This document shows positions 34,271 through 41,020 of a stretch of DNA of 64,000 nt, in pieces. Every line of letters starts with the position of its first letter. Position 1 is the first letter of the stretch. The position numbers were made by a program, and so were the translations under genes. This DNA is from Bordetella genomosp. 1 (GTDB taxonomy: Bacteria; Pseudomonadota; Gammaproteobacteria; Burkholderiales; Burkholderiaceae_B), in NCBI RefSeq assembly GCF_002261335.1, contig NZ_NEVL01000002.1, forward strand, positions 1-64,000. The letters are read 5' to 3'. The notes under the pieces are model-generated. The model was not told where the DNA came from, made no database searches, and was given only the letters and a program-made list of their open reading frames with translations.

Positions 34271-36037
34271 TCAGGCGCCGGCGGCCCACGAGTCTTTCAG
34301 CGTGACGATGCGGTTGAGCACCGGCGCGCCCGGCGCCGAGTCCTTCGCGTCGACCGTGAAGTAGCCCAGGCGCTCGAACTGCCAGGTGTTGCCCGGCTCG
34401 GTCACGATGCCCGGCTCCAGCCAGGCCTGCACGGTCTGCTTGGAGTTCGGGTTGAGCGCGGCGAGGAAGTCCTTGTCGCCCGCGTCGGGATGCGGATCGG
34501 CGAACAGGCGGTCGTAGAGCTGCACCTGCGCCGGCACCGCGTGCGCGGCGCTGACCCAGGTGATGTTGCCCTTGACCTTGACGCTGTCGGCGCCCGGCGT
34601 GCCGCTCTTGGTGTCGGGCAGGTATTCGGCCTGCACCTCGACCACGTCGCCGGCTTCGTTCTTGGTGAAGCCGGTGCAGCGCACCACGTAGCCGTATTTC
34701 AGGCGCACGGTGTTGCCGGGGAACAGGCGGAAATACTTCTTCGGCGGCTCCTCGCGGAAGTCGTCGCGTTCGATCCAGAGCTCGCGCGAGAACGGGAACT
34801 CGCGCACGCCGGCTTCCGGGTCGTGCGGATTGCGCGGCGCGGTGCAGGGCTCGGTCTGGCCTTCGGGATAGTTGGTGATGACCAGCTTGATCGGGTCGAG
34901 CACGGCCACCGAACGCGGCGTGGCCGGATCGAGGTCGTCGCGCACGGCCTGCTCCAGCAGGCTGTAGTCGATGCGGGAATCCGATTTCGACACCGCGGTG
35001 CGGTCGCAGAACAGCCGGATCGACGACGCGGTGTAGCCGCGGCGGCGCAGCCCGAACAGGGTCGGCATGCGCGGGTCGTCCCAGCCGTCGACGTAGCCTT
35101 CGCGCACCAGTTGCAGCAGCTTGCGCTTGCTGGTGACGATGTAGGTCAGGTTCAGGCGCGCGAATTCGTATTGGTGCGGCAGCGGACGGGCCAGCTTGCC
35201 CAGGTCGGCCAGGCGCGCCAGGATCCAGTCGTAGAACGGCCGCTGGTCTTCGAACTCCAGCGTGCAGATGCTGTGCGTGATGCCTTCGAGCGCGTCCTCG
35301 ACCGGATGGGCCCAGCTGTACATCGGGTAGATGCACCACTGGTTGCCGGTGCGGTGGTGGGTGGCATGGCGCACGCGATACATCACCGGGTCGCGCAGGT
35401 TGATGTTGGGCGAAGCCATGTCGATCTTGGCCCGCAGCACCAGGCTGCCGTCGGGATGCTTGCCGTCGCGCATCTCGCGCAGGCGGGCCAGCGATTCGGC
35501 CGGCGCGCGGTCGCGGAATGGCGAGTTGGTGCCCGGCTCGGTGAGGGTGCCGCGCTGGGCGCGGATCTCGTCGGCGGTCTGCTCGTCCACGTAGGCGTGG
35601 CCGGCCTCGACCAGCGCCTCGGCGAACTCATACATATAGCCGAAGTAGTCGCTGGCGAAGTACAGGTTGTCGCGGCCATCGGCCTTCCAGTCGAAGCCGA
35701 GCCAGTGCACGGCCTCTTCGATGGCGTCGACGTATTCCTGGTCTTCCTTCTCGGGATTGGTGTCGTCGAAGCGCAGGTGACAGACGCCCCCATACTCCTT
35801 GGCCAGCCCGAAGTTCACGCAGATGCTCTTGGCGTGACCGATGTGCAGGTAGCCGTTGGGCTCCGGCGGGAAGCGGGTGCGGATCCGGGCGGTGTCGGGT
35901 TCCCCCGCGGCCTGGACGGCTGCCGGGCCGGGACGGCCCGCCCAGCGCTTGTCCTGGAAGCGCTGGGCGTCCAGGTCTTCCTCGATGATGTTGCGCAGAT
36001 AGTTACTGGCGGCAGGCGGCGTCGGTGCGTGGGTCAT
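34271..36037 (-). CDS. glnS: Glutaminyl-tRNA synthetase
   Basis: Class I aminoacyl-tRNA synthetase charging tRNA-Gln, 588 residues. The HIGH motif is in PEPNGYLHIGHAKS (HIGH at 65-68) and the KMSKS-equivalent is AVSKSDSR near residue 290. The C-terminal anticodon-binding barrels follow (LDPIKLVITNYPEGQ, LPDTKSGTPGADSVKVKGNI-type sequence). The extended N-terminus NYLRNIIEEDL matches proteobacterial GlnRS. Monocistronic, divergent from the cydA-like gene. Confidence 0.96.
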   Translation of the reverse strand: MTHAPTPPAASNYLRNIIEEDLDAQRFQDKRWAGRPGPAAVQAAGEPDTARIRTRFPPEPNGYLHIGHAKSICVNFGLAKEYGGVCHLRFDDTNPEKEDQEYVDAIEEAVHWLGFDWKADGRDNLYFASDYFGYMYEFAEALVEAGHAYVDEQTADEIRAQRGTLTEPGTNSPFRDRAPAESLARLREMRDGKHPDGSLVLRAKIDMASPNINLRDPVMYRVRHATHHRTGNQWCIYPMYSWAHPVEDALEGITHSICTLEFEDQRPFYDWILARLADLGKLARPLPHQYEFARLNLTYIVTSKRKLLQLVREGYVDGWDDPRMPTLFGLRRRGYTASSIRLFCDRTAVSKSDSRIDYSLLEQAVRDDLDPATPRSVAVLDPIKLVITNYPEGQTEPCTAPRNPHDPEAGVREFPFSRELWIERDDFREEPPKKYFRLFPGNTVRLKYGYVVRCTGFTKNEAGDVVEVQAEYLPDTKSGTPGADSVKVKGNITWVSAAHAVPAQVQLYDRLFADPHPDAGDKDFLAALNPNSKQTVQAWLEPGIVTEPGNTWQFERLGYFTVDAKDSAPGAPVLNRIVTLKDSWAAGA

Positions 36038-36153
36038 TCTGCAAGAATCGGAAAAAGCGGCGACAAAGCGTCAATTTTGCCACGTTCCCGGCCAGAGGCC
36101 GTTGCAATCCTGCCTCCCACGGGGGCGGAACAGGCTCTACACTACCGCCCATC

Positions 36154-37494
36154 ATGAATATCGCCCCTCTGCAGCTGGCTCGAACCCAGTTCATGACCAG
36201 CCTGAGCTTTCTGGCTCTGTTCCTGGCCATTTCGCTGGCGTTGGCCTGGTTTCTGCTGTTTTTCAAGATCCGGGCCCGCGGCGCCGGCCAGGCCGGCTGG
36301 ACCGCGGCCTACCGCCTCTGGGTGCGGATATTCGCCCTGGCCTTCGTGCTGGCGCTCGCCGCCGCCGTGCCGGTGCTGGTCCAGCTGGGCAGCCTCTGGC
36401 CCGGCCTGATGGACAAGATCGGCAACGTGGCCGGCCCGCTGATCGGCTTCGGCGTGCTGTCGGTATTCGTGCTGAAGTCCTGTTTTCTTGGCGTGATGCT
36501 GTTCGGCCAGCGCCGCGTGTCCGACCTGGCCCACACCTTCGCGGTGTTCATGGTGGCCGTGGGCCAGCTGGTGGCCCTGGGCTGGGTGGTGGCGCTCCAG
36601 ACCTGGATGCAGACCCCCGACGGCGCCGCCCTGATCGACGGGCGCTACCAGGTCTACGACTGGTGGGAAGTCATCTTCAACCCCTCGTTCGGCTGGCGCG
36701 CCGGCGCCACCGTGGTGGGCGCCGCGCTGGCGGCCGCTTTCCTGATGATCGGCGTGCACGCCCTGCAGGCCCTGCGCCGCCCCCTCGACGACGGCGAACG
36801 CCTGGCGTTCAAGGCCGCGGTGGTGGTGGCGCTGGTGGCCGCGGCCCTGCAATGGCCGGTGGCGCAGAGCCTGCGCGACCTCACCGTGCGGCACCAGCCC
36901 GCCAAGGCGGCCGCGCTCGCGGGCTACTGGCACAGCGGCGGCAAGCCCGAGATCGCGGTCTGGGGCTGGCCCGACGCCGAGAGCCAGGCCAACCTGGGCG
37001 CCTGGACGCTGCAGAACACCGGGCAGCGCTGGCTCGCCCTCGACCCCAACGGCCTGTACATCGGGCTCGACAAATACTCCGGCATGCAGCCGCCCGTGGC
37101 GCTGGTGTTCTGGTCGCTGCGCGTGGCGGTGCTGCTGGGCGCCCTGATGTTCGTGGCCGCGCTGGTGTCGTTCCTGGGCACCATGCGGCGCGGCTTCGAT
37201 CCGGGCGTGATGCCGCGCTGGTGGCTGCGCCTGCTCACCGGCATGATGTTCTCGGGCGGGGCCGCCGTGGTGGCCTCGCTGTGGGTGTCGCTGCTGGGCC
37301 TGCAGCCCTATCTGGTCAACCGCAGCATCACCCAGTCCGAGGTGCTGAGTCCGGTCGCCGCCTCCACGCTGGGCTACGGCCTGGTCGCGTGGGGCGTGCT
37401 CTATTTCATATTGCTGGCGGCCTTCATCGGCATGCTGTTCCACGCGGCGCGCTACGGCGTGGTGCCCGTGCGCAAGACGGGAGGTACGCCATGA
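36154..37494 (+). CDS. CydA-like (cytochrome bd subunit I) paralogue lacking haem-ligand residues
   Basis: A 446-residue polytopic protein that aligns by eye along its length with subunit I of CIO-type cytochrome bd quinol oxidases: LARTQFMTSLSF, AGPLIGFGVLS, FLGVMLFG, ALQTWMQTP, IFNPSFGWR, HQPAKAAALAGYW, MQPPVALVFWSLR. At the positions of E. coli His19, His186 and Met393 (haem ligands) it has Leu20, Ala185 and Ala325. Glu99, Glu107, Trp441, Glu445 and Arg448 become Gly100, Lys108, Leu376, Leu380 and Leu383. The quinol-loop Lys252 is kept (Lys251) but Glu257 is Ala256. The frame is intact with all helices, so it does not look like a decaying pseudogene. It is unlikely to be an ordinary oxidase. 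It overlaps the cydB-like gene by 4 nt. Confidence 0.85.
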   Translation: MNIAPLQLARTQFMTSLSFLALFLAISLALAWFLLFFKIRARGAGQAGWTAAYRLWVRIFALAFVLALAAAVPVLVQLGSLWPGLMDKIGNVAGPLIGFGVLSVFVLKSCFLGVMLFGQRRVSDLAHTFAVFMVAVGQLVALGWVVALQTWMQTPDGAALIDGRYQVYDWWEVIFNPSFGWRAGATVVGAALAAAFLMIGVHALQALRRPLDDGERLAFKAAVVVALVAAALQWPVAQSLRDLTVRHQPAKAAALAGYWHSGGKPEIAVWGWPDAESQANLGAWTLQNTGQRWLALDPNGLYIGLDKYSGMQPPVALVFWSLRVAVLLGALMFVAALVSFLGTMRRGFDPGVMPRWWLRLLTGMMFSGGAAVVASLWVSLLGLQPYLVNRSITQSEVLSPVAASTLGYGLVAWGVLYFILLAAFIGMLFHAARYGVVPVRKTGGTP

Positions 37495-38549
37495 TCGCCA
37501 CTCTGGCCGCTTCGCTCGGGCTGGCGCCCGACGATCCGATGTTCTGGATGCCCATGGTCTTCATGGGGCTGCTGCTGTTGCTGATCGCCGCCGGCATCGT
37601 GTTCGACGGCTTCGACCTCGGCGTCGGCATCCTGCTGCAGATCGCGCCCTCGGAAGAACGCGGCCGCATGATGGGCCTGCTGTCGCCCTGGCGCGACGCC
37701 AACGAGTTCTGGCCGCTGCTGGGGGTCGGGCTGTTCGCCTCGGCCTTTCCGTTCGCCTGGGGCGCCATCACCGGCAAGCTGGTCGGGCCGCTGATGGTGG
37801 TCACGCTGGGCATCGTGCTGCGCAGTGTCGCGTTCGAGTTCCGCATCCGCGCGCGCCAGGAACACAAGCCGCGCTGGATCTTCGGCTTCTGGATCGGCTC
37901 GCTGCTGACCGCGATCGGGCAGGGCATGGTGCTGGGCCGCATCGCCACCGACTACCAGAGCGACGCGGGCTACGGCTGGTTCTCGCTGTTCGTGGGCCTG
38001 TGCGCGGTGGCGGCCTACGCGCTGCTGGGGGCCTGCTGGCTGGTGATGCGCGTCGACGGCGACCTGCAGCGCCGTGCGGCCCGCTGGGCGCGCCATTCGA
38101 TCCGCTGGACGGCGGCCGGCATGGTGGCGATCGCCGTCACCCTCGGCCTGGCCAACGCGGGCATCTTCTACAAATGGAGCAACGCGGCGCATCTGGGCGC
38201 GGCCACGGCCGTGTGGGCCGGCATGCTGCTGTGTTTCGTGAGCGCCGAGGTGTTCCTGGCGCGCGTGCCGACCAAGCCCGACAGCTTCAGCTGGGCGCCG
38301 TTCGTGCTCTGCGTGCTGCTGTATGTGCTGATGCTGCTCGGCCTGGCCTACAGCTTCTTCCCGTATCTGATCCTCGACGACATGACCATCTGGGACGGCA
38401 GCGGCGCGCTCGGCTCGATGCGGCTGGTGCTGGCCGGCGTGGTGGTCGGCGTGCCGGTGGTGCTGATCTTCAACCTGCTGGCCTACCGCTCGGTGTTCGG
38501 CAAGGAGCGCCGCCCGGTGGCGCTGCTGCCGCCGCCCTCGGTGTCCTGA
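37491..38549 (+). CDS. CydB-like (cytochrome bd subunit II) protein
   Basis: A 352-residue membrane protein matching subunit II of CIO-type cytochrome bd in overall plan. AGIVFDGFDLGVGILL carries the conserved DGFDLG. SPWRDANEFWPLLGVGLFASAFP corresponds to the usual P-W-x-x-N-x-x-W region (here SPWRDANEFW). The second half ends SFFPYLILDDMTIWDGSG, matching the family FPY...TIW block. It is coupled to the ligand-less CydA-like gene by ATGA. No cydX-like small ORF follows. Confidence 0.85.
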   Translation: MIATLAASLGLAPDDPMFWMPMVFMGLLLLLIAAGIVFDGFDLGVGILLQIAPSEERGRMMGLLSPWRDANEFWPLLGVGLFASAFPFAWGAITGKLVGPLMVVTLGIVLRSVAFEFRIRARQEHKPRWIFGFWIGSLLTAIGQGMVLGRIATDYQSDAGYGWFSLFVGLCAVAAYALLGACWLVMRVDGDLQRRAARWARHSIRWTAAGMVAIAVTLGLANAGIFYKWSNAAHLGAATAVWAGMLLCFVSAEVFLARVPTKPDSFSWAPFVLCVLLYVLMLLGLAYSFFPYLILDDMTIWDGSGALGSMRLVLAGVVVGVPVVLIFNLLAYRSVFGKERRPVALLPPPSVS

Positions 38550-38615: not shown

Positions 38616-40142
38616 TCAGGCCGGATCGGTCGGCGCCAGCGGCAGGGTGATGCGTACCAGCAGGCCGCCGCCGCTGTGGTCGCCCAGCTCGAGCGTGCCG
38701 CCGTGGGCGCGCGTGATGGCCTCGGTGAGCGCGAGGCCCAGGCCCACGTTGCCGGTGCGGGTGCGGGCGTCGTCGAGACGGGCGAACGGCCGCAGCGCCT
38801 CGGCGCGCCGTGGCGCGGCGATGCCGGTGCCGTGGTCGCCCACCTCCAGCACCGCGTGGTTGCCGTCGCGTGCCAGGCGCACGTCGATGGGCGGCGCGCC
38901 GTGGTGCAGGGCGTTGCCGATCAGGTTGTCGAGCAGGCGGCCGAGCGCCACCGCGTCGGCCTGCACGTGCAGGCTGTCGTCCTCGGGCGCGTCCAGCGTG
39001 ATGGCGGTGTTGGTGCTCTGCCAGGCGCCGACGCGGTCGCGCGCCCAGTCCACCATCTCGAGCGGGGCGTAGCGGTAGGCCGCGGGGTCGGTGCCGCGCA
39101 CGAAGCCGATGAACTGGTCCACCATGTGCTGCATGTCCTGGAGGTCTTTGCGCAGGCCCTCCTTGAGCACGGAATCGTCGGCCATCTCGATGCGCAGCCA
39201 CATGCGCGACAGCGGTCCCTTCAGGTCGTGCGGCAGGCCCGAGAGCAGGGTGCGTCGCACCGAGTCGGATTCGGCCAGCGCGTCCAGCATGGCGTTGAAG
39301 CGCTCGCCGAGCGCCCGCGTCTCGTGCGGGCCGGCGGGCTCGACGCGCTGCGGCTGGCCCGCGGCGAGCTGGTCGGCGGCCTGGGCCAGGCGCGTGAGCG
39401 GCCGCGTGATGTGCCAGGAGAACCAGGCCGCCAGCATGAGCACCAGGCCCAGCCCGCCGAGCCAGAAGGCCACCAGCGGCGAGGACACGGGCGGATCCAG
39501 GCGTTCGAGCGGGATCACCAGCCATTCGCGCAGCAGCGGCGCGTCTTCGCTGGCCGGGTTGGGCGCGAGCGAAATGTAGACCTCGGCGCGCGGGCCGCGC
39601 GACAGCGCCACGCGGGTGCCGTCGTTGAGGCGGATGTTGAGCTCGCGCACCAGGTCGCGCAGGTCGCGCCGCACGTCATCGGGGTCATCGTGGGGGTGGC
39701 GCGCGCGCCGCTGCGCCTCCATGCGGCGGAACGCCTCCATGCGCTGTTCGCGTTCGACCGGATCGTCGAGGTCGTCGTCGCGCGGCGGACCGGGCGGGGG
39801 CGGCGGCATGGCGCCCGGCATGAAGCGGTCGGGCGGCGGCATGTTCAGGCGCTGCAGGCGCGCCTCGGCCGGCAGCATGCGCGACCACAGCCGCCATTGA
39901 TTCTGCGACGCGGCCCGCACGAAATCGGCGCGGTCCTCGGCAGGGATCTGCGCCAGCGAGGCGCGCAGCGTGCGGATGGTGGTGGCGATGTAGCCGATCG
40001 CGACGTCCTCCATGAACTTCTGGCGGAAGTACGACACGGTGGCCAGCGTGGCGGCCTGGGTCAGCAGCACCGATCCCAGCACGAGCAGGATCAGCCGCGC
40101 GCGCAGCGAGCGCGGCACCAGGCGTGCGGGCGAGAACGTCAT
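38616..40142 (-). CDS. Two-component sensor histidine kinase
   Basis: A 508-residue inner-membrane kinase. TM1 is at about 15-37 and TM2 at 222-243, bracketing a 185-residue periplasmic sensor. HAMP follows at 245-297 (HITRPLTRLAQAADQLAAG). The phospho-acceptor is His305 in LPHDLKGPLSRM, then the N box LLDNLIGNALHHG, DHGTGI and GNVGLGLAL. The sensor has a strange insert at about 100-165 made of a Pro run (MPPPPPGPP) and an Asp/Glu/Arg/His-rich stretch, possibly metal- or polycation-sensing (inference). It overlaps its response regulator by 4 nt. Confidence 0.93.
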   Translation of the reverse strand: MTFSPARLVPRSLRARLILLVLGSVLLTQAATLATVSYFRQKFMEDVAIGYIATTIRTLRASLAQIPAEDRADFVRAASQNQWRLWSRMLPAEARLQRLNMPPPDRFMPGAMPPPPPGPPRDDDLDDPVEREQRMEAFRRMEAQRRARHPHDDPDDVRRDLRDLVRELNIRLNDGTRVALSRGPRAEVYISLAPNPASEDAPLLREWLVIPLERLDPPVSSPLVAFWLGGLGLVLMLAAWFSWHITRPLTRLAQAADQLAAGQPQRVEPAGPHETRALGERFNAMLDALAESDSVRRTLLSGLPHDLKGPLSRMWLRIEMADDSVLKEGLRKDLQDMQHMVDQFIGFVRGTDPAAYRYAPLEMVDWARDRVGAWQSTNTAITLDAPEDDSLHVQADAVALGRLLDNLIGNALHHGAPPIDVRLARDGNHAVLEVGDHGTGIAAPRRAEALRPFARLDDARTRTGNVGLGLALTEAITRAHGGTLELGDHSGGGLLVRITLPLAPTDPA

Positions 40143-40840
40143 GGCGCGAAGCGGTAGCCGATGCCCCAGACCGTCTGGATCCAGCGCGGCTGCTTGGGAT
40201 CTTCCTCGATCGCGCGACGCAGGCGCAGGATCGCGATGTCGATGGCGCGGTCGTTGCGTTCGCCGCTGTCGTCGTCGCGGGCCAGCGCCAGCAGGCGCTC
40301 GCGCGACAGCGGCTTGCCGGCGTTGCGCACCAGCGCCTCGAGCAGGTTGATCTCGCCGCCGGTGAGTTTCACGGGCGTGTCATCGCGCAGCAACTGGCGC
40401 GTGGTGGGATCGAAGACGAACGGCCCGAAGGAAACCGGCGCGTCCTTGGTGAGGGCCGAGGGGCCGCGCTTGCGCCGCAGCACCGCCTCGATGCGGGCCA
40501 GCAGCTCGCGCGGGTCGAAGGGCTTGCCGAGGTAGTCGTCGGCGCCGGCCTCCAGGCCGATGATGCGGTCGACCGCCTCGTCGCGCGCGGTCAGCAGGAT
40601 CACGGGAATGTCTTCGCCCTGTTCGCGCAGGCGGCGGCACGCATCCGCGCCGTCACCGCCGGGCAGCATGCGGTCGAGCACCAGCAGGTCGGGCACGTAG
40701 CGCGTGATGCGCGCGGCCAGGTCGCTGGCGTCGGGCGCCAGCAGCGTGTCGTAACCGTGGCGGTTGAGGTAGTCGGCCAGCAACTGGCGCAGGGCAGGGT
40801 CGTCGTCGACCACCAACAGCTTGGTATGCGGATTTTCCAT
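40139..40840 (-). CDS. ompR: OmpR-family response regulator
   Basis: A 233-residue regulator with a receiver domain (acidic pair Asp12-Asp13, phospho-acceptor Asp56 in DLLVLDRMLPGGDG, Lys106 in DDYLGKPFDP). The winged-helix DNA-binding domain covers about 135-232 (VKLTGGEINLLEALVRNAGK, ending QTVWGIGYRFAP). It closely follows the OmpR rather than the PhoB pattern. It precedes the kinase and overlaps it (ATGA). The gene is divergent from the usher-like gene with a 180-nt AT-richer gap, so that gene is a candidate target. Confidence 0.93.
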   Translation of the reverse strand: MENPHTKLLVVDDDPALRQLLADYLNRHGYDTLLAPDASDLAARITRYVPDLLVLDRMLPGGDGADACRRLREQGEDIPVILLTARDEAVDRIIGLEAGADDYLGKPFDPRELLARIEAVLRRKRGPSALTKDAPVSFGPFVFDPTTRQLLRDDTPVKLTGGEINLLEALVRNAGKPLSRERLLALARDDDSGERNDRAIDIAILRLRRAIEEDPKQPRWIQTVWGIGYRFAP

Positions 40841-41020
40841 GGATGCCAGTGTCGTTCGCGGCCCGCCAGGGGGCAAGTGGGAAGAAATCGATTGAAAAAT
40901 ATAACGGTAACCAGCCGACCCTGCGTGCACGCCATGCCTGGGCTTAGAATAGCCGGCTCGTGCCCGCCGGCCTTCAAGCAGGCGAGACTTCCCGTGCCGT
41001 TTTTTTAAGATCGTTTACAG

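Follow-up and report, generated by a model that had tools for sequence, protein, structure and literature searches.

The haems of cytochrome bd oxidases sit in the periplasmic halves of the transmembrane (TM) helices of subunit I (CydA), and the conserved histidine proximal to haem b558 is presumably H19 in Escherichia coli numbering. A CydA-like subunit without the full set of ligands is contained in the CydAA' systems (OR-N type). In most structures the proximal histidine holds haem d, and in Geobacillus haem b595 (PMC8951039); the b558 ligand pair consists of H186 and M393 (PMC5322542), and CydAA' oxidases have been described as well (PMC10839748). The proton pathway of bd oxidases runs between the TM2 and TM3 helices (PMC8951039), and the proton-uptake residues of E. 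coli are K53, K57, E107 and E74 in CydA and D58 and D105 in CydB (PMC13189123). In Bordetella bronchiseptica eight oxidase loci have been reported, among them cydAB3 (BB4012-4011), which is predicted to encode a high-affinity bd oxidase (McKay et al. 2024, PMC11257404). Here, we analysed a stretch of 64,000 nucleotides from Bordetella genomosp. 1 (contig NZ_NEVL01000002.1, positions 1 to 64,000 of the forward strand; the window), which contains a two-gene operon for a CydA-like and a CydB-like protein. By kinship the genome falls within Bordetella, with Bordetella genomosp. 5 as its best-matching named relative (87%). Comparison of sequences indicates that in the Alcaligenaceae this pair has lost the haem sites and the quinol-loop glutamate and has kept the fold and the two-gene operon, usually at one locus and under purifying selection on both subunits.

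The gene for subunit I (36154..37494, forward strand) encodes 446 amino acids and the gene for subunit II (37491..38549, forward strand) 352. Its start overlaps the stop of the first gene by 4 bp (ATGA, 37491-37494), an overlap kept in 60 of the 68 loci of our tree set; this set comprises 68 sequences (rows) of the ligand-less clade, with mainly near-duplicates of Bordetella and of genus g2 left out (L, G and g numbers are our labels for loci, genomes and genera). PF01654 spans residues 8-435 of subunit I (E = 3.8e-94) and PF02322 residues 20-334 of subunit II (E = 9.5e-58), and at E ≤ 0.001 the pair matched only these two Pfam families. The initial annotation, made from the sequence alone, had given coordinates, lengths, frames, ATGA coupling and a full-length correspondence to CydA, all of which agree with our open reading frame and domain analyses. 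By descent and by fold the pair is a member of the bd superfamily, with homologous subunits I and II and the folds of CydA and CydB. As a bd oxidase it fails on every haem ligand tested, and those NCBIfam oxidase models that match score far under their own cut-offs.

Sites were numbered on E. coli K-12 CydA (L029) in a MAFFT alignment. Of the four axial haem ligands none is present in the window: H19 is replaced by L20, H186 by A185, M393 by A325 and E445 by L380. The oxygen-site residues E99 and E107 have become G100 and K108, W441 and R448 have become L376 and L383, and from the quinol-loop pair K252/E257 the lysine is retained (here K251) and the glutamate exchanged for A256. R391 and Q449-P450 are retained as well. 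In a pairwise HMMER alignment with E. coli bd-II (7ose_A), the sites H19, E107, H186, M393 and E445 fall on the same residues of the window. Thus, all nine replacements listed in the initial annotation were recovered with MAFFT, five of them also on the bd-II sequence, and the sites of all four axial ligands map to non-ligand residues in both alignments. An alignment slip as the cause of the lost ligands can reasonably be rejected, given the agreement between differently composed MAFFT sets and HMMER. The haem assignment that accompanied the list held for M393 as a b558 ligand; the roles given to H19 and H186 were exchanged, as H186 is the partner of M393 (PMC5322542).

The loss is conserved among homologues. 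Among 140 aligned rows, 34 retain all of the nine residues that they cover, namely E. coli, a second, canonical CydA of the same genome (L001, with all nine checked residues) and relatives outside the clade; the other 106 constitute the ligand-less group. These 106 rows, of which 96 are distinct, are fewer than the 166 genomes that scored above 442 bits in the family search described below. In the distinct rows E99 (0/95), E107 (0/96; Lys in 95, Arg in 1), H186 (0/96) and E257 (0/96) are absent throughout, H19 is kept in 7/94, and M393, W441, E445 and R448 are kept in 8, 42, 4 and 6 of 96. In the tree set the same four residues are absent from every row, with H19 left in 7, M393 in 7, E445 in 4, R448 in 6 and W441 in 18. 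It is almost certain that the pair is not an oxidase.

The closest described systems are canonical CydAB of the short Q-loop form (closest row L131), with which the pair shares homologous subunits, the bd fold and the operon order. R391, G447 and P450 are nearly always kept in the clade and K252 in 49/68 rows, whereas the clade is without the haem ligands, E99, E107 and the quinol-loop E257, and constraint appears to have moved to subunit II. The likeness to CydAA' drawn in the initial annotation is a poor fit, because the subunit lacking ligands has a CydB partner of its own. In CydAA' a second CydA-type subunit is the proposed partner and CydB is absent, whereas here a CydB-like gene overlaps in the operon, which encodes no haem-bearing partner. 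The membrane subunits of alternative complex III and PsrC, which we take to be of the NrfD family, show 8-15% identity to the pair in structural alignments, a similarity of fold only. In the fold search no family of transporters or channels rose above the noise level of helical bundles, a result that excludes nothing, and no description of a ligand-less CydAB clade was found in the literature searched.

With the ligand columns excluded, the 68 ligand-less rows form one clade, with a support of 100 in the Shimodaira-Hasegawa-like approximate likelihood ratio test of a quick tree and 100/100 in a careful tree, and the same 68 form one clade in the CydB tree (support 100). The sister in the quick tree is the canonical L131 of the same family (support 99). 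On the tree, E99, E107, H186 and E257 changed once each and M393 seven times. H19 is kept by seven rows, L097 of g26 and L118, L119, L120, L136, L137 and L138 of g43, which also keep W441, E445 in four cases (Asp in two others) and R448 in six; they are without E99, E107, H186 and E257, and six of the seven are without M393. Haem-site relics or dihaem-only proteins would be possible labels for these intermediates. In the careful tree the 61 rows outside g26 and g43 group together with support of only 46/27, a grouping that the approximately unbiased test did not reject (p = 0.769). Since a seventh g43 locus outside the tree (L247) has lost H19 too, this remaining haem site may have disappeared on more than one occasion. 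The data indicate that the ligand-less form has a single origin and that its residues were probably lost in stages, the b558/quinol side and the acidic pair probably first and the remaining haem site later. A recent loss within Bordetella alone is rejected, as the one clade spans the family.

The ratio of nonsynonymous to synonymous substitution rates (dN/dS; Nei-Gojobori method, NG86) in 15 close pairs was 0.03-0.23 for subunit I and 0.01-0.13 for subunit II, and 0.03-0.31 in six canonical CydA pairs. Upstream of the pair, 67 of the 68 ligand-less loci, across 30 genus labels with Bordetella under more than one label, carry a glnS homologue on the opposite strand (34271..36037 on the reverse strand in the window, divergent from the operon); none of the canonical loci does, though for some of these the flanks extend over just 1.5 kb. 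Two more upstream clusters, presumably minC- and minD-like as judged by eye, occur in 60 and 58 of the 68 loci, 6-8 kb off in the window and nearer elsewhere. All neighbour clusters were defined by similarity, and their members need not all be orthologues. A pseudogene is rejected by dN/dS and the open frames, and horizontal spread is unsupported given the glnS synteny. Because selection, synteny, the single clade and wide retention in the family coincide, we consider the pair a maintained, functional complex with near certainty, in line with the proposal of the initial annotation that selection maintains something other than an ordinary bd oxidase.

In a search of the genus the gene was detected in all 15 genomes, with partial matches only in G012 and G013. 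For the family, a profile built from 36 clade rows (A3) was run against 268 genomes of 43 genera; 182 matched at E ≤ 1e-110 and 166 of these exceeded 442 bits, the best score of any out-of-family locus in the order draw. By this score the ligand-less form occurs in 30 of the 43 genera, and the listed matches in the 166 genomes are without internal stops. The 16 matches under the threshold came from G080, G131, G212, G219 and twelve genomes of g22. When 15 low-scoring, partly matched or unmatched genomes were searched again, L172 and L173 (both with Arg at position 107), L180/L189, L181, L182 and the partial loci L185 and L186 were ligand-less, and loci from four g22 genomes and G219 were canonical on reading. 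In L181/L250 (G121, g13) the ligand-less subunit I lies in an open frame of 586 amino acids (stop to stop), with a C-terminal end unlike YGVVPV. Outside the family, all nine residues are kept in the 22 top-scoring loci that an order draw of 399 genomes gave for other families (L150-L171) and in the three best new loci of a class draw of 321 genomes; divergent ligand-less forms of lower score would escape these draws.

To describe where constraint lies, we compared the clade with canonical loci. Mean pairwise identity in the clade (29 sequences, one per genus label) was 0.51 for subunit I and 0.62 for subunit II, the reverse of a canonical set of 17 loci (CydA 0.60, CydB 0.52), which suggests that constraint has shifted from subunit I to subunit II. 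In subunit I, mean entropy was 1.43 bits in the periplasmic TM halves (0.73 in the canonical set), 1.26 bits in the cytosolic TM halves (1.15) and 1.44 bits in the periplasmic loops (1.07), whereas the cytosolic loops (30 positions) were better conserved in the clade, with 1.17 against 2.06 bits. In subunit I, conservation peaks in the cytosolic halves of TM2 and TM3, which take the first two places among the half-helices, a ranking that 0 of 10000 permutations reached; among the half-helices of subunit II, TM2 ranks first, TM5 second and TM3 third, and 9 of 10000 permutations reached the ranks of TM2 and TM3. TM2 and TM3 were chosen for this test after the entropy comparison had been seen. 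At the proton-entry sites K53 and K57 of E. coli the clade has Arg in 68/68 rows each (R54 to R58, codons at 36313..36327), and at E107, the proposed proton donor, Lys in 67/68 and Arg in 1/68 (K108, 36475..36477). In subunit II, W57 and D58 of E. coli correspond to Arg and Asp in 67/68 rows each (R68 and D69, 37692..37697) and D105 to Glu in 68/68 (E116, 37836..37838), all on the forward strand. Subunit II has also gained invariant residues, among them R205, W206, N222, W242, D296 and D302. Subunit I has a C-terminal Y-G-V-V-P motif, with G435, V436 and P438 in 68/68 rows and Y434 in 62/68 (Phe in 6).

Some lineages are reduced further. In subunit I of g3 (five loci), g39 (L244) and part of g5 (L237, L238) the Q-loop is mostly deleted and fills 25-36 of the 114 E. 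coli columns. These subunits (L232-L238 and L244) have open frames of 377-402 amino acids (stop to stop) and lie at the glnS locus with a CydB-like gene; in g3 a CydB match was found in 10/10 genomes. In all of them R54/R58 are retained and position 107 is Lys, or Arg in L235 and L238, whereas R391 remains only in L235. The C-terminal Y/F-G-V-V-P-V survives in all six forms from g3 and g39, two of them having Phe in place of Tyr. A strongly diverged subunit I occurs in L249 (g7), where the charged network is partly preserved and no glnS homologue was found in the 9-kb locus. Canonical forms, forms with H19 left, ligand-less forms and ligand-less forms without a Q-loop represent a natural series for the function of the bd scaffold without redox chemistry.

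The operon very probably corresponds to cydAB3 of B. bronchiseptica and to BP3224-3225 of B. pertussis, because the length of a published deletion fits to 1 nt and no other CydA is left. The cyd3 deletion comprises 2373 bp; it begins 41 nt upstream of cydA3 and extends as far as nt 994 of cydB3 (PMC11257404); the geometry of the window predicts 41+1337+994=2372, and cydAB3 is the CydA that remains once cydAB1 and cioAB are assigned. In that study (section 8), no B. bronchiseptica strain living on cyd3 alone could be obtained, and low transcription was suggested as the cause (PMC11257404). The missing haem ligands would be a simpler reason. The pair is annotated and counted as a terminal oxidase across much of the family although it lacks the residues that hold haem, and published Bordetella oxidase counts and oxygen-affinity predictions include it. 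A 2026 review from that group continues to list CydAB3 among the oxidases and states that none of them has been characterised biochemically (PMC13367067). The staged loss, the shift of constraint to subunit II, the deletion of the Q-loop in some genera and the probable identity with cydAB3 go beyond the initial annotation.

We propose, with a probability of roughly 0.4, that the pair is a redox-dead CydAB heterodimer whose functional centre has moved and which serves as a membrane module linked to protons or to small ions/solutes. The subunits would still assemble as in a bd oxidase, and the functional centre would leave the haem half of subunit I for subunit II and the cytosolic TM2/TM3 pathway of both subunits. 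There, the proton-uptake pathway of bd oxidases would stay conserved but recharged, with R54, R58 and K108 in subunit I and R68, D69, R111, E116, R118 and R120 in subunit II, and the module would move protons, small ions or solutes, not electrons. Proton- or solute-linked work as the specific job is the tentative element of this proposal.

Several observations weigh against it. E74 of E. coli is Leu in 61/68 rows and S140 is kept in 15/68, so that the proton pathway is not intact. The topology was derived from homology to bd structures and from predicted helices, and the canonical set is small (17-18 rows) and was not matched for divergence. Most of the same half-helices are conserved at least as well in the canonical set (TM3 of subunit I 0.18 bits; TM2/TM3 of subunit II 0.41/0.34), TM2 of subunit I alone being better kept in the clade (0.71 against 1.00 bits); cytosolic TM2/TM3 conservation therefore amounts to retention, and the retained half-helices may serve only the packing of subunits I and II. 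In four g5 loci (L240, L241, L242, L243) the charged network is lost or changed in subunit I, as far as this can be aligned, and mostly in subunit II, with the pair still in frame; judging by these loci, the proton-entry network is dispensable in some lineages. As they lose the network jointly while R205, N222, W229, W242 and W301 of subunit II persist, the comparison suggests that the network functions as a whole and that subunit II harbours a deeper core. In the published genetic work, single-locus strains were equally unobtainable for cco, cio, ctaD2 and cyo2, a single cyd3 deletion grew like the wild type in ambient air, and B. pertussis is losing the locus, which is intact in 50% of 14 strains (PMC11257404).

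Apart from the proton- or solute-linked module, the conservation of the cytosolic face (TM2 start, loop 118-127, C-terminal YGVVPV) might reflect a pseudo-oxidase scaffold or regulator that binds a membrane or cytosolic protein and moves no ion. The cytosolic loops of subunit I, far better conserved than in canonical CydA, fit such a role, as does the near-invariant C-terminal motif that is present even in the Q-loop-less forms of g3 and g39. In addition, genes for an EnvZ-like histidine kinase (38616..40142, reverse strand) and an OmpR-like response regulator (40139..40930, reverse strand) adjoin the operon, with their similarity clusters represented in 50 and 48 of the 68 ligand-less loci, the latter also in one canonical locus. 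However, a number of the most strongly constrained residues are located within the membrane and in subunit II (D39, R111, R205, W206, W242), and the kinase gene is convergent and was not found in 18/68 loci, some of which are cut short; we regard a scaffold as possible but rather unlikely. It is less probable still that the pair binds quinones or isoprenoids for storage, delivery or sensing in the quinone pocket of subunit II, which in E. coli CydB takes the place of the haems, as E257 is gone in 68/68 rows and the Q-loop is deleted in some genera. Moreover, in mycobacterial CydB this pocket is filled by aromatic side chains (PMC8951039), and the clade-specific W206 and W242 could do likewise.

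A haem-free complex conducting protons or anions could aid tolerance of CO2, bicarbonate or pH, in that the empty haem cavity would join the kept cytosolic half-channel and K108 and R68 would select the ion. If true, this would explain why a B. bronchiseptica strain without cco, cyd3, cio, cyo2 and ctaD2 grows poorly in 5% CO2 although CO2 is reported to change the expression of no oxidase gene (PMC11257404). Any of the five deleted loci may cause the defect, which is absent in 5% O2 + 5% CO2 (PMC11257404), and we give this idea very little weight. Slightly less credible is an unusual bd-type enzyme or haem carrier that still binds haem through other residues. The seven rows that keep H19, some with E445 and R448, would speak for it, but they lack H186, E99 and, in six cases, M393, and in the periplasmic half of subunit I the start Met is the sole His, Cys or Met residue conserved to at least 90%. 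A decaying relic without function could account for the frameshifts at the locus in B. pertussis strains (PMC11257404, section 7), the further degraded forms in g5 and g7 and the stop-split subunit I of L246. For the clade as a whole it is refuted, with dN/dS well under 1 in 15/15 pairs for both subunits, fixed synteny and the matches in 166 genomes, and we assign it the smallest chance of all.

Directly 5' of the start of subunit I (36120-36157), a block resembling CTACACTACCG.CCATCATG is common to most of 16 aligned relatives, and a -10-like TACACT lies about 10 nt ahead of the ATG. Possibly, the transcript of subunit I is near-leaderless. By eye, no FNR-like box was recognised in the aligned block and no clear Shine-Dalgarno sequence was seen for subunit I. 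For the EnvZ/OmpR-like pair (38616-40930), which is convergent to the operon, no NCBIfam equivalog cut-off was reached among the matches listed. Between the two likely membrane segments of this pair lies a stretch rich in Pro, Asp and Arg.
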